41,770 nt of DNA from IMG/VR virus record IMGVR_UViG_3300044712_000190, positions 1 through 41,770 of that record, one strand, 5' to 3'. The DNA is from a virus. The translations under genes and the position numbers were made by a program. Positions 4,504 through 41,770 of this stretch are shown here, piece after piece (within the stretch, counting starts at the first letter, position 1; every line of letters begins with the position of its first letter). Under the pieces are notes generated by a model. It made no database searches and was not told where the DNA came from. It saw only the letters and a program-made list of their open reading frames with translations.

Positions 4504-4995
4504 ATGGCATCAACTATTCGTGGTGGTGACAACTGGAGCAGTCAAGGTGTCATGGTACAAGCGGTGCATTCGCAGACGGGTGCAGTTGCGACTGGAACAA
4601 CGGCCACCCCACTTGACGACACGATCCCGCAGAGTGGCGAGGGAACACAGTTTATGACTCTGGCAATCACACCAAAAAGCGCGGCCAATAAGTTGGTTAT
4701 TGAGGTCGTTTGGTGTGGTGCGTCTTCATCAAATTCTTATTTAGTAGTAGCACTGTTCCAAGACTCTACCGCAAACGCTTTAGCCACTGTTTGCGAGGCG
4801 AATGGTGGCGCGGGGAATATGGTGGCAATTCCGTTGACACATGAGATGACCGCTGGAACAACATCCGCGACTACTTTCAAGGTTAGAGTTGGTGCCAACG
4901 ACGGCGGAACAATCACGTTTAACGGATGGGGGTCAAACAGAATGTTCGGTGGCGTAGCTGCCTCCTCAATCCGCATCACGGAGATTTCGGTATGA
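4504..4995 (+). CDS. Putative tail fibre / receptor-binding accessory protein
   Basis: A 163-residue, Ser/Thr/Gly-rich protein predicted to be mostly beta-strand, of the kind often found in distal fibre modules. The start ATG 4504 follows AAGGA (4495..4499). Its codons are more AT-rich than those of the neighbouring head and tail genes, suggesting recent exchange. Its end overlaps the next start (ATGA at 4992..4995). No specific domain was recognised; the fibre role is inferred from composition and location. Confidence 0.6.
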   Translation: MASTIRGGDNWSSQGVMVQAVHSQTGAVATGTTATPLDDTIPQSGEGTQFMTLAITPKSAANKLVIEVVWCGASSSNSYLVVALFQDSTANALATVCEANGGAGNMVAIPLTHEMTAGTTSATTFKVRVGANDGGTITFNGWGSNRMFGGVAASSIRITEISV

Positions 4996-33788: not shown

Positions 33789-36143
33789 ATGGATAAAAGC
33801 TACGATGAGGAAGCCGTGGAGCTTCTGACCCCCTATTCGGACGAGACTCCTGAAGAACTGGAGCCGAAGGAAGGGATGACCGACGAAGACCTCCAGGGTG
33901 CTGTCGCAGCCGAAATCAAGGATGCCGTCGATTTCAACGACGAGTACCTGCAAACCATGCGGGTCAAGGCCAGCCAATACTTCCACGGAGCGCCGTTTGG
34001 TGACGAGGAAGAAGGCCGCAGCCAAGTGGTCAGTCGGGATGTAGCCGATTCGATCAATGCCTACCTGCCCAACCTCATGCGGATATTCTTCTCGGCTGAG
34101 AAGGTGGTCGAGTACATCCCTGAGAACCCGGAGGATGTGGCTGGCGCGGAACAGGCGACGGACTACATCAACCACATCATCCAGAAAGAGAACAACGGCT
34201 TTACGGTGCTGTATTCGGCTTTCAAGGACGCGCTGATCCGCAAGACGGGCATCATCAAGTGGTGGTGGGACGAAAGCACCTGCGTCAAGACGGCTCGCTA
34301 CACCGGGCTGGACGACATGGCCTTCCAGTCCTTGATGACCGACCCGGAGGTGGAAATTAGGAACGTCGAGTCCATTGAGCAGATGACCATGATTCAAGAC
34401 CCGATGACGGGTCAGATGGTCGAACAGATCATGACCTACTACAACGTCGAGGCGGCGCACACCAAGACAATGGGGCGGGCGAGGATTGCGGCGGTTCCGC
34501 CCGAAGAGTTCCTTCTGGACCGCAAGGCGACCTGTCTGGACGACGCCACGTTCGTCGGCCACCGGAGCATGAAGACGGTTTCTGAGCTTGTGGCAATGGG
34601 CTACGAGAAGGAGGATGTCGAGGAATACGTCGAGAACGACATCTTCTGGGACAACGCGGAAGTCATTGAGCGCAACCAGTGGCAGAGCTTCCCGGACAGC
34701 GGCACGAACGATGTCAGCACCCGCCATGTGCTGTACGTCGAAGGCTTCATGAAGGTCGATTACGACGGCGACGGCATTGCCGAACTGCGTCGGATTTGCA
34801 CGATGGGGCCAGGGTACGAAATCGTGATGAACGAGCCTTGGGACGATGTGCAGTTCGCTGACTTCTGCCCAGACCCGGAGCCGCACACGGTCATTGGCAA
34901 CTCCATTGCAGATCGGGTGATGGACATTCAGGATGTCAAGAGCCATGTCATGCGTGGCGTACTCGACTCACTGGCACTGTCGATTCACCCGCGCATGGGT
35001 GTGGTCGAGGGGCAGGTCAATATGGAAGATGTGATGAACACCGAAATGGGTGCCATCATCCGTCAGCGCGCACCGGGCATGGTGCAACCCTACGATGTCC
35101 CGTTTGTCGGCCAACAGGCTTTTCCGGTCCTTCAGTATATGGACGAGATTCGGGAGAACCGCACGGGCATGAGCAAGGCGGCGATGGGCCTCAATGCGGA
35201 CGCCTTGCAGTCCAGCACCAAGGCAGCGGTGGCTGCGACCATCACGGCGGGGCAGCAGCAGATTGAACTCGTCGCCCGCATCTTTGCAGAAACCGGCGTC
35301 AAGCGGTTGTTCAAGGGCTTGCTCAAGCTGGTGTGCAAGAACCAAGACAAAGCCAAGATCGTCCGCTTGCGGAACCAGTTCGTGCCGATCGACCCACGGG
35401 CATGGAATGCCGATATGGATGTCACGGTCAATATCGCCTTGGGTGCTGCGAGCGACGAAGAGAAGTTGATGGCCTTGACCCAAGTGGCCGCGAAGCAAGA
35501 GCAGATCATGCAGTTGTTAGGGCCGCAGAACGTCCTGACCGATGTGAAGAAGTACCACTACACCCTGACCAAGATGACTGAGTTGGTCGGGTTCAAGGAT
35601 TCCAGCCAGTTCTGGAACGACCCGGCGACCACACCGGCCCCGCCGCCCGCACCGCCCAAACCGACACCGGAAGAGGTCATTGCGCAGGTCGAGCGTGAAA
35701 AGGCGCAACTGACCGCGCAGACCACGATGGCGAAGGCCCAAGCCGATCAGGTCATCTCGCAGCAGAAGGTCGAGATTGAGAAGTCCAAGCAGGAAGTCGA
35801 TACTGCCGTCAAGGTGCAGGAGATGGCGATTGAGCGCGAAAAGATGCAGCTTGAGCGCGAGCGCATGGAGTTCGAAAAGTATAAACTGGCGATGCAGTTG
35901 CAGATCGAAGAGATGAAGCTGCAAGGCATGGCGCAGAAGCAGATGATCGAAGCCCAGAAGGCGCAGGAGAAAGAAGATGGCATGCAAAGGGCGCGGCAAG
36001 AAGAAGAAATGAAGCACGAGCAAGGCGAAGGCCACATGGCCCAGGCGGTCACAATGCTTGGGCAGATGATGACCGCGCCTCGCAGGGTTGTCCGTGATCC
36101 GCAAGGCCGGGTTGCGGGGGTTGAAATTGGAGGGGTTGAGTAG
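33789..36143 (+). CDS. Portal protein
   Basis: A 784-residue protein that forms the ring at the DNA entry vertex. The acidic N-terminus is followed by the portal core (YLPNLMRIFFSAEKVVEYIP, then DFNDEYLQTMRVKAS earlier and IKWWWDESTCV later), of the kind found in phage SU10-like and P22-like portals. Residues from about 630 onward are a Pro-rich linker and a long Gln/Glu/Lys coiled coil, the barrel helix. The start ATG 33789 has GGGAAGG upstream. Its stop overlaps the next start (TAGTG). Confidence 0.92.
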   Translation: MDKSYDEEAVELLTPYSDETPEELEPKEGMTDEDLQGAVAAEIKDAVDFNDEYLQTMRVKASQYFHGAPFGDEEEGRSQVVSRDVADSINAYLPNLMRIFFSAEKVVEYIPENPEDVAGAEQATDYINHIIQKENNGFTVLYSAFKDALIRKTGIIKWWWDESTCVKTARYTGLDDMAFQSLMTDPEVEIRNVESIEQMTMIQDPMTGQMVEQIMTYYNVEAAHTKTMGRARIAAVPPEEFLLDRKATCLDDATFVGHRSMKTVSELVAMGYEKEDVEEYVENDIFWDNAEVIERNQWQSFPDSGTNDVSTRHVLYVEGFMKVDYDGDGIAELRRICTMGPGYEIVMNEPWDDVQFADFCPDPEPHTVIGNSIADRVMDIQDVKSHVMRGVLDSLALSIHPRMGVVEGQVNMEDVMNTEMGAIIRQRAPGMVQPYDVPFVGQQAFPVLQYMDEIRENRTGMSKAAMGLNADALQSSTKAAVAATITAGQQQIELVARIFAETGVKRLFKGLLKLVCKNQDKAKIVRLRNQFVPIDPRAWNADMDVTVNIALGAASDEEKLMALTQVAAKQEQIMQLLGPQNVLTDVKKYHYTLTKMTELVGFKDSSQFWNDPATTPAPPPAPPKPTPEEVIAQVEREKAQLTAQTTMAKAQADQVISQQKVEIEKSKQEVDTAVKVQEMAIEREKMQLERERMEFEKYKLAMQLQIEEMKLQGMAQKQMIEAQKAQEKEDGMQRARQEEEMKHEQGEGHMAQAVTMLGQMMTAPRRVVRDPQGRVAGVEIGGVE

Positions 36144-40577: not shown

Positions 40578-41537
40578 ATGAGTGAAACTGCCAACACCCC
40601 GGAAGGGCTTGGTATTGACGCAGCAGCAGCACAATTCGCCAACATCTTGTCCGGTGATGAACCGAAAAACGAGGAGTCTGGTGAGGCGCAACCCACCGAA
40701 GAGGTGGAATCGGAAGGCGAGGTAGAGCAAGAAGCCGCGCCGGATGATGTAGAGGAAGTCGAGGAAGGCACGGAGGAAGACGAACCGGCCCAACCGAAAA
40801 CCTTCAAGGTCAAAGTTGACGGTGAAGAGGTTGAGGTAACGGAAGACGATCTTCTCAACGGCTATTCCAGAACTGCCGACTACACCAAAAAGACACAAGC
40901 TCTGGCTGAACAGCGCAAGGCATTTGAGGCTGAACAGCAAGCCGTCTTGGAGGAAAGAGCCAAGTACGCACAGGTGTTATCCGCCCTGCAAGCTCAGTTG
41001 CAAACCGCAACCGCCCAGGAGCCGGATTGGGATGCTTTGTACGACCAAGACCCCATTGAAGCCTCCAAGCTGGAGCGGAAGTGGCGGGCGTACAAGGAGC
41101 AGCAAGCTGCGGTTCGCGCTGAACAAGAGCGGGTCGCGGAGCAGGAGAAGGGCGAGCAGATCAAACGGATGCGTTCGCACCTCCAGAACGAGATGGCAAA
41201 GGTTCTTGAAGCCATCCCTGAATGGAAGGATGAAGCGAAAGCGAAGGAAGGTCGAGCCGCCTTGGTACAGTACGGCAAGTCCATTGGCTTCAGCGACGAA
41301 GAGTTGAGCGCAGTTTACGACTCTCGGATGGTGAAGGTTCTGAAGGATGCCGCCGCTTACCGCGCCCTGCAAGAGAAGAAGACGACCCTTCAGCCCACCA
41401 AGGGGCAGGTCAAGACTTCAACTCCGTCTGCTGCCACATCCAAACCCGCACCGAGTGCCGTGACGAAGGCCAAACAGCGTCTTGCGAAGACTGGCCGCGT
41501 CGAAGACGCAGCCGCAATTTTCAAAGGTTTGATTTAA
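40578..41537 (+). CDS. Scaffolding protein
   Basis: A 319-residue protein that organises capsid subunits into a prohead and then leaves. Features: very acidic, disordered N-terminal third; KVKVDGEEVEVTEDDLLNGYSR (residues 75-96), which is typical of phage scaffolds; a long Gln/Glu/Lys coiled coil to about 240; and a basic Lys-rich C-terminal tail that would bind the capsid protein. ATG 40578 has AAGGAG. It is 11 bp from capsid exon 1. Confidence 0.9.
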   Translation: MSETANTPEGLGIDAAAAQFANILSGDEPKNEESGEAQPTEEVESEGEVEQEAAPDDVEEVEEGTEEDEPAQPKTFKVKVDGEEVEVTEDDLLNGYSRTADYTKKTQALAEQRKAFEAEQQAVLEERAKYAQVLSALQAQLQTATAQEPDWDALYDQDPIEASKLERKWRAYKEQQAAVRAEQERVAEQEKGEQIKRMRSHLQNEMAKVLEAIPEWKDEAKAKEGRAALVQYGKSIGFSDEELSAVYDSRMVKVLKDAAAYRALQEKKTTLQPTKGQVKTSTPSAATSKPAPSAVTKAKQRLAKTGRVEDAAAIFKGLI

Positions 41538-41548
41538 GGAGATTCATC

Positions 41549-41614
41549 ATGGCAATGATTACTGGAAGTTTCACCACTTACGATGCCAAAGGCAATCGGG
41601 AAGACCTCGCGGAT
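41549..41614 (+). CDS. Major capsid protein, exon 1
   Basis: Codes for the first 22 residues of the capsid protein and ends in NREDLAD before an in-frame TGA that belongs to the intron. Related capsid proteins read through as ...NREDL(S/A)D-VIYNISP..., and VIYNISP is exactly what starts at 968, so the two parts form one protein of 316 residues. The start ATG follows AAGGAG (41537..41542), 11 bp after the scaffold gene, as expected for a scaffold-capsid pair. The gene appears cut off only because the contig was opened inside the intron. Confidence 0.93.
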
Positions 41615-41640
41615 TGACAATTTGCTGTCATTGTTATAGC
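41614..41640 (+). promoter_or_regulatory. Possible promoter at the intron 5' end
   Basis: TTGACA (41614..41619) matches the sigma-70 -35 consensus exactly. The only -10-like string nearby, TATAGC (41635..41640), gives a short 15-base spacer. If active it would transcribe the HNH gene independently of the capsid transcript. The same bases also form the P1 loop hairpin, so the match may be chance. Confidence 0.25.
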
Positions 41641-41643
41641 ATC
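41615..41643 (+). ncRNA. Group I intron, 5' end before the contig break
   Basis: These 29 bases are the start of the same intron; after circularisation they run into base 1. They begin with TGA in frame with exon 1, so an unspliced transcript gives only a 22-residue peptide. They form the P1 loop and contain a small hairpin, TGACA-atttgc-TGTCA (41615..41630). Confidence 0.9.
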
Positions 41644-41770
41644 TAGTCCGCTAAGTGCTTTCGGATGAGGTGCAGAGATGACAGACGCGAAAACGTGGAA
41701 AACATTGGATCGTAACGACATGCTTACCTTGTTTGCTGAAAAACCCGCTACGGCGATAGCTGCGATGTTT
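41644..41770. repeat. Right copy of the 127-bp terminal direct repeat
   Basis: Exact copy of bases 1..127. It contains the guide sequence of the intron (equivalent to 3..8) and a truncated second copy of the HNH gene start (ATG at 41678). When the genome is circularised one copy should be removed, which joins capsid exon 1 (41549..41614) and the first 29 intron bases (41615..41643) to base 1. Confidence 0.95.

Follow-up and report, generated by a model that had tools for sequence, protein, structure and literature searches.

Endonuclease-bearing group I introns with a patchy distribution are found in bacteriophage genomes, in td, nrdB and nrdD of T4 and in the DNA polymerase genes of the SPO1 and Bastille type. 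These introns resemble the one described here in having an in-frame stop at or near the intron start; their targets are genes of nucleotide metabolism and replication, whereas the target in the window (the whole 41,770-nt stretch of viral DNA that we analysed) is a structural gene. A closer parallel is gp13 of mycobacteriophage LittleE (Cluster J), a major capsid gene with a group I intron that RT-PCR and protein sequencing showed to splice (PMC3706429). As in the window, the LittleE intron bears an HNH gene and lies in the major capsid gene; its 5' splice site follows a U and its last base is a G. The two differ in that LittleE is a temperate siphovirus with an HK97-type capsid, whereas the capsid of the window is SU10-type; the LittleE endonuclease gene runs leftward, against the capsid gene, whereas the HNH gene of the window lies on the same strand; and the LittleE intron was found in one of six relatives, whereas the site in the window is shared by 12 lineages. 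The same paper also cites a group I intron in a capsid subunit gene of the lactococcal phage Tuc2009, again a phage capsid intron but from a different host group; both LittleE and Tuc2009 are likened to the window by published description rather than by sequence comparison. The first-pass annotation, made from the sequence alone, had called introns in capsid genes uncommon, which is a fair statement although these two precedents exist.

A report on PhiPA3 describes an intron-encoded endonuclease that interferes with co-infecting phage (PMC11620839). PhiPA3 is a nucleus-forming jumbo phage, whereas the phage of the window is SU10-type; each has an intron-encoded homing endonuclease, and the PhiPA3 case indicates that cleavage of a competitor can matter. 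By analogy, a role in competition is conceivable for the endonuclease of the window. Our search of open-licence papers found no introns in SU10-type capsid genes. The kind of element is already known; to judge from these searches, what is new is the lineage, the choice of host gene and the density of states at a single site. The phage capsid introns that we found in the literature are single cases, and in the present family of capsids one site has been hit repeatedly across distant phages.

An intron-split SU10-type capsid gene

Comparison of the ends of the window revealed that bases 1–127 are exactly those of 41644–41770, and the contig therefore closes to a circle of 41,643 bp. The first copy of this terminal direct repeat (1–127) is intron sequence and the second (41644–41770) is the assembly overlap of the circular genome, so that the circle is cut at an arbitrary place, inside an intron that the break hides, as the first-pass annotation had inferred. 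All features of the window given by coordinates below lie on the plus strand. Exon 1 of the major capsid gene (41549–41614; MAMITGSFTTYDAKGNREDLAD) has 22 codons and is preceded by the ribosome-binding site AAGGAGA (41536–41542) and, directly upstream, by a head scaffold protein gene (40578–41537; phrog_3927), the usual neighbour of this capsid gene. Exon 2 (968–1852; 294 codons plus stop) on its own matches the SU10-type profile PF17236 (SU10_MCP) over its length (1.9e-101), and also phrog_1328. The genome has an SU10-type portal protein gene as well (33789–36143; PF23899), which assigns the phage to the virion family indicated by its capsid. The exon junction GAT/GTG gives the reading LAD/VIYNISP, the spliced sequence being CTCGCGGAT joined to GTGATTTAT, and removal of the intron restores an uninterrupted SU10_MCP protein whose reading matches that of uninterrupted relatives. 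Both the exon positions and the junction had been proposed from the letters alone, and comparison with intron-free relatives bears them out; it had also been predicted that routine annotation would call a missing or truncated capsid gene, and the ORF caller reports only a 295-aa ORF with a TTG start at 965. Truncation of intron-split capsid genes is to be expected from gene callers and from phage surveys based on the capsid.

Relatives overwhelmingly run through this junction, and the interruption is therefore not a matter of chance. In 79 of the best 80 IMG/VR capsid relatives the exon 1 residues are directly joined to exon 2, the exception (L047) being interrupted 24 nt further on by another group I intron; the nearest capsids among the matches listed, L002 (77%) and L001 (72%), are both intron-free, and the window has no close empty counterpart among them. 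Across the 337 capsid loci examined, automatic scoring found 297 uninterrupted and inspection by eye added 8 of the remaining 40 (five with RTDL/KTDL, two cut by contig ends and one with Ns), for a total of 305; the other loci of the 40 bear introns, some being duplicate fetches of one contig. Of 311 capsid N-termini from isolated phages, 298 span 80% or more of a 58-residue query crossing the junction, and none of the 60 listed is split there. A DNA pattern for the exact junction between intron and exon 2 matched only contigs already known. Judged by these relatives, the 22 residues of exon 1 are a normal, conserved portion of the capsid protein. Loci reached by capsid queries alone were interrupted within the first 30 codons in 11 of 320 cases, a rough figure of 3.4% given that each search comprised the best 80 matches; two of the 11 are contigs also reached by the endonuclease search.

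The intron comprises 41615–41643 and 1–967, a total of 996 nt. Its first 29 nt (41615–41643) begin with TGA, an in-frame stop right after exon 1, and form the apical hairpin of P1. The last six bases of exon 1, GCGGAT, are the 5' strand of P1, and the internal guide sequence GTCCGC (3–8, also 41646–41651) is its 3' strand; in the RNA, GCGGAU pairs with GUCCGC with a U·G wobble at the splice site. This pairing, which the first-pass annotation had proposed, appears unprompted in the predicted minimum-energy fold and is backed by the covariation described below. A search with the Rfam covariance model for group I introns, RF00028 (cut-off 50 bits), gave a match at 663–930 (83.8 bits, E 5e-20) in which the conserved catalytic core (P3–P8, P7) is present; this match and the capsid reading restored on removal agree with the original assignment of a group I intron. 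The clear core starts near 689, with the sequence GGGTGAATTGC from about 694, and is group IA-like, with an extra hairpin between P7 and the 3' strand of P3. A further P9-region hairpin (GAGGATAAAGAGCCTC) occupies the 3' end of the intron (931–967), which finishes with a terminal G at 967. The core had been said to follow the endonuclease gene: it is intact, but the 5' strands of P3 and P4 overlap the last ~17 codons of the endonuclease ORF, which ends at 742.

That gene (35–742) is open and encodes an HNH homing endonuclease of 235 aa, with an HNH motif matching PF01844 at 28.2 bits (cut-off 21.4) and phrog_8446 at 4e-20; an HTH_23 match in the same protein is below its cut-off. A search of bacterial and archaeal genomes found only four weak partial relatives. 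Full-length relatives (38–61%) among the IMG/VR matches listed all lie within introns at the site of the window. In the PDB the endonuclease profile best matched a short stretch of a phage HNH enzyme (5h0m, E 4e-4), too weak a match for a model of cleavage.

Inferred mobility of the intron

We interpret the locus as a capsid gene that carries a mobile group I intron with a homing endonuclease, and assign this reading a probability of roughly 0.94; splicing, cleavage and homing of this particular copy are what we infer from its anatomy and from the pattern of alleles in the population. The intron should splice itself out of the capsid RNA. After transcription it would fold so that the guide GUCCGC holds the exon 1 end GCGGAU at the catalytic core, guanosine would attack after the U at the end of exon 1, and the exons would be joined (GAT/GTG), allowing a normal capsid protein of 316 aa to be translated. 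In co-infecting phages whose capsid gene has no intron, the HNH protein presumably cuts or nicks that gene at or near the site, and repair of the gene would copy the intron in.

Group I introns at the exact codon boundary used in the window are carried by 17 contigs, which make up 11 lineages besides the window (L082–084, L085, L352/354, L122, L123/124, L125/126, L285/287, L268, L127, L251 and L306). These were gathered through endonuclease queries and from other capsid genes, and the set is enriched by the endonuclease-based searching, so that its size gives no survey frequency. Every one of the 11 lineages has an RF00028 match above the cut-off, and all of the introns open with a stop codon (TGA or TAA) in the reading frame of exon 1 and have G as their last base. 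Same-site introns occur at scattered points of the capsid tree: on a maximum-likelihood tree of 88 rows, built by a quick method and with some weak branches, the 12 same-site alleles need 10 state changes. Relatedness of the endonucleases does not follow that of the capsids. The window and L082 share 46.5% identity in the capsid and 61.4% in the endonuclease, whereas L125 and L306 share 78.8% and 38.2%, respectively, and over 45 pairs the rank correlation between the two identities is 0.20 (p 0.19). This pattern in the sequences, like the scatter over the tree, suggests that the endonuclease gene passes from allele to allele separately from the capsid gene around it.

A cycle of gain, decay and loss has been proposed for homing elements. 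Several states of the site coexist in one phage population, in which L125 has the intron with its endonuclease and L285/L287 have the L125 intron minus the endonuclease (339 of 342 aligned bases identical, with a 651-nt gap), the capsid gene of L285 being nearly identical to empty alleles. In L268, from the same population, the site is occupied by another intron that also lacks an endonuclease gene; the empty alleles L278, L279 and L283 encode capsid proteins that are 98–100% identical. This set of alleles fits such a cycle. Taken with the scatter over the tree and the identity mismatch, the full, endonuclease-deleted and empty alleles read as the signature of the homing cycle, and alleles of all three kinds in near-identical backgrounds offer a natural population in which gain, decay and loss can be measured.

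The same observations bear on whether the intron, instead of being a mobile parasite, might have been domesticated to regulate capsid expression. Such a role would suit a highly expressed late gene, and the in-frame stop at the junction would make expression depend on splicing. The scattered distribution, the loss of the endonuclease and the mismatch in relatedness between capsid and endonuclease are, however, traces of a selfish homing element, and near-identical phages have empty alleles; we therefore consider domestication very improbable.

The guide sequences vary with the exons that they meet, and the P1 pairing is maintained. P1 is GCGGAU:GUCCGC in the window, GAGGAU:GUCCUC in L082, GCGAAU:GUUCGC in L122, ACGGAU:GUCCGU in L125 and UCGGAU:GUCCGA in both L127 and L251, with the U·G at the splice site in all lineages. 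Over the 11 lineages 92.6% of cells are paired compared with 81.1% in shuffles, none of 500 shuffles reaching as high; three of the six pairs show compensatory change, with seven double-changed cells compared with 1.6 expected, and slid registers pair at 15–47%. Only four contiguous pairs form in 4 of the 11 tested lineages (L085, L352, L306 and L268), the guide sequence of L268 having been placed by eye. Because plain MAFFT aligned the P5–P8 region of the intron cores wrongly, its alignment was set aside and we restrict the covariation claim to P1.

Covariation of P1 with exon 1 across lineages requires selection for splicing, and so speaks against a locus in which splicing has been lost, exon 1 is a dead remnant and translation of a shorter capsid starts with the TTG codon at 965. 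The 295-aa ORF reported from that codon and the mere 22 codons of exon 1 would suit this explanation, but practically every relative has those 22 residues in conserved form, the group I core is intact, and exon 1 retains its own ribosome-binding site whereas none precedes 965; we regard it as very unlikely. An assembly artefact, in which two phages or a repeat were wrongly joined where the contig ends coincide with the interruption, can be dismissed almost entirely, since the 127-bp end repeat is exact and the order of scaffold gene, exon 1, HNH intron and exon 2 recurs within single contigs from many other samples (for example L082, L085, L122, L127 and L306).

Within the family of introns at this site we found two layouts. 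The window, L082 and L122 have the guide sequence 31 nt into the intron, ahead of the endonuclease gene, and L125, L127 and L251 have it behind that gene, which consequently lies within the P1 loop. Since the endonuclease proteins of both layouts are homologous over most of their length and the insertion site is identical, either the gene or the guide must have moved within one intron family. In addition, a 23-nt flank around the intron, GAAGATTTGACGGAT before it and GTTATTTA after it, is common to L085, L352 and L306, whose capsid genes are distant, and occurs in none of 297 empty alleles. The shared flank suggests co-conversion; constraint by splicing or recognition is an alternative, because the L306 endonuclease is of a different type (38–39%).

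Neighbouring introns and recoded alleles

Further introns lie close to this position. L112, L114, L115 and L116 carry a gene-free 293-nt intron 7 nt downstream, with P1 GUGAUCU:GGAUCAC, and L047, L117 and L156 have introns 21–24 nt downstream of the site of the window, those of L047 and L156 encoding another HNH protein. These downstream introns do not reach the Rfam cut-off (L047 scores 28.8 bits), and they were identified from conserved core motifs together with the interrupted gene. At least eleven other phage lineages have related introns at the same few codons as the window; homing elements have thus hit this site repeatedly, and the gene start is a natural hot spot for them.

Three empty alleles (L276, L277 and L289) have 21 silent changes in 67 nt, at capsid nucleotides 42–108. 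Nearly every codon of this tract is changed, with no amino-acid change there; the rest of the capsid gene is nearly identical to that of neighbours, and the intron site lies between nucleotides 66 and 67. No donor for the tract was found among the sampled alleles or isolated phages. The tract could be a recoded target that resists the endonuclease, or it could be a conversion tract. In 61 independent pairs of closely related empty alleles there is no general rise in divergence at the junction, and the recoded alleles are therefore a special case rather than part of a general hot spot of change. We entertain, as a speculation to which we give odds well below even, that phages and homing introns at four neighbouring positions are in an ongoing contest over the initial ~110 nt of SU10-type capsid genes, and that some phages escape by synonymous recoding; if true, a synonymously recoded target would no longer be recognized by the endonuclease.

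In L277 a free-standing HNH_3 endonuclease gene (about 984–1712) directly follows the capsid stop codon. The last capsid codons of this contig, which also has the recoded N-terminal tract, are silently changed as well. In L082 and L083 the capsid gene is interrupted once more towards its 3' end by a second group I intron (4596–4829; RF00028 73 bits), and both exons are required to complete the capsid protein. A search of IMG/VR with the 3'-end pattern GATAAAGAGCCNNGGNGGTAACA matched six contigs, all six of which carry the match in a capsid gene.
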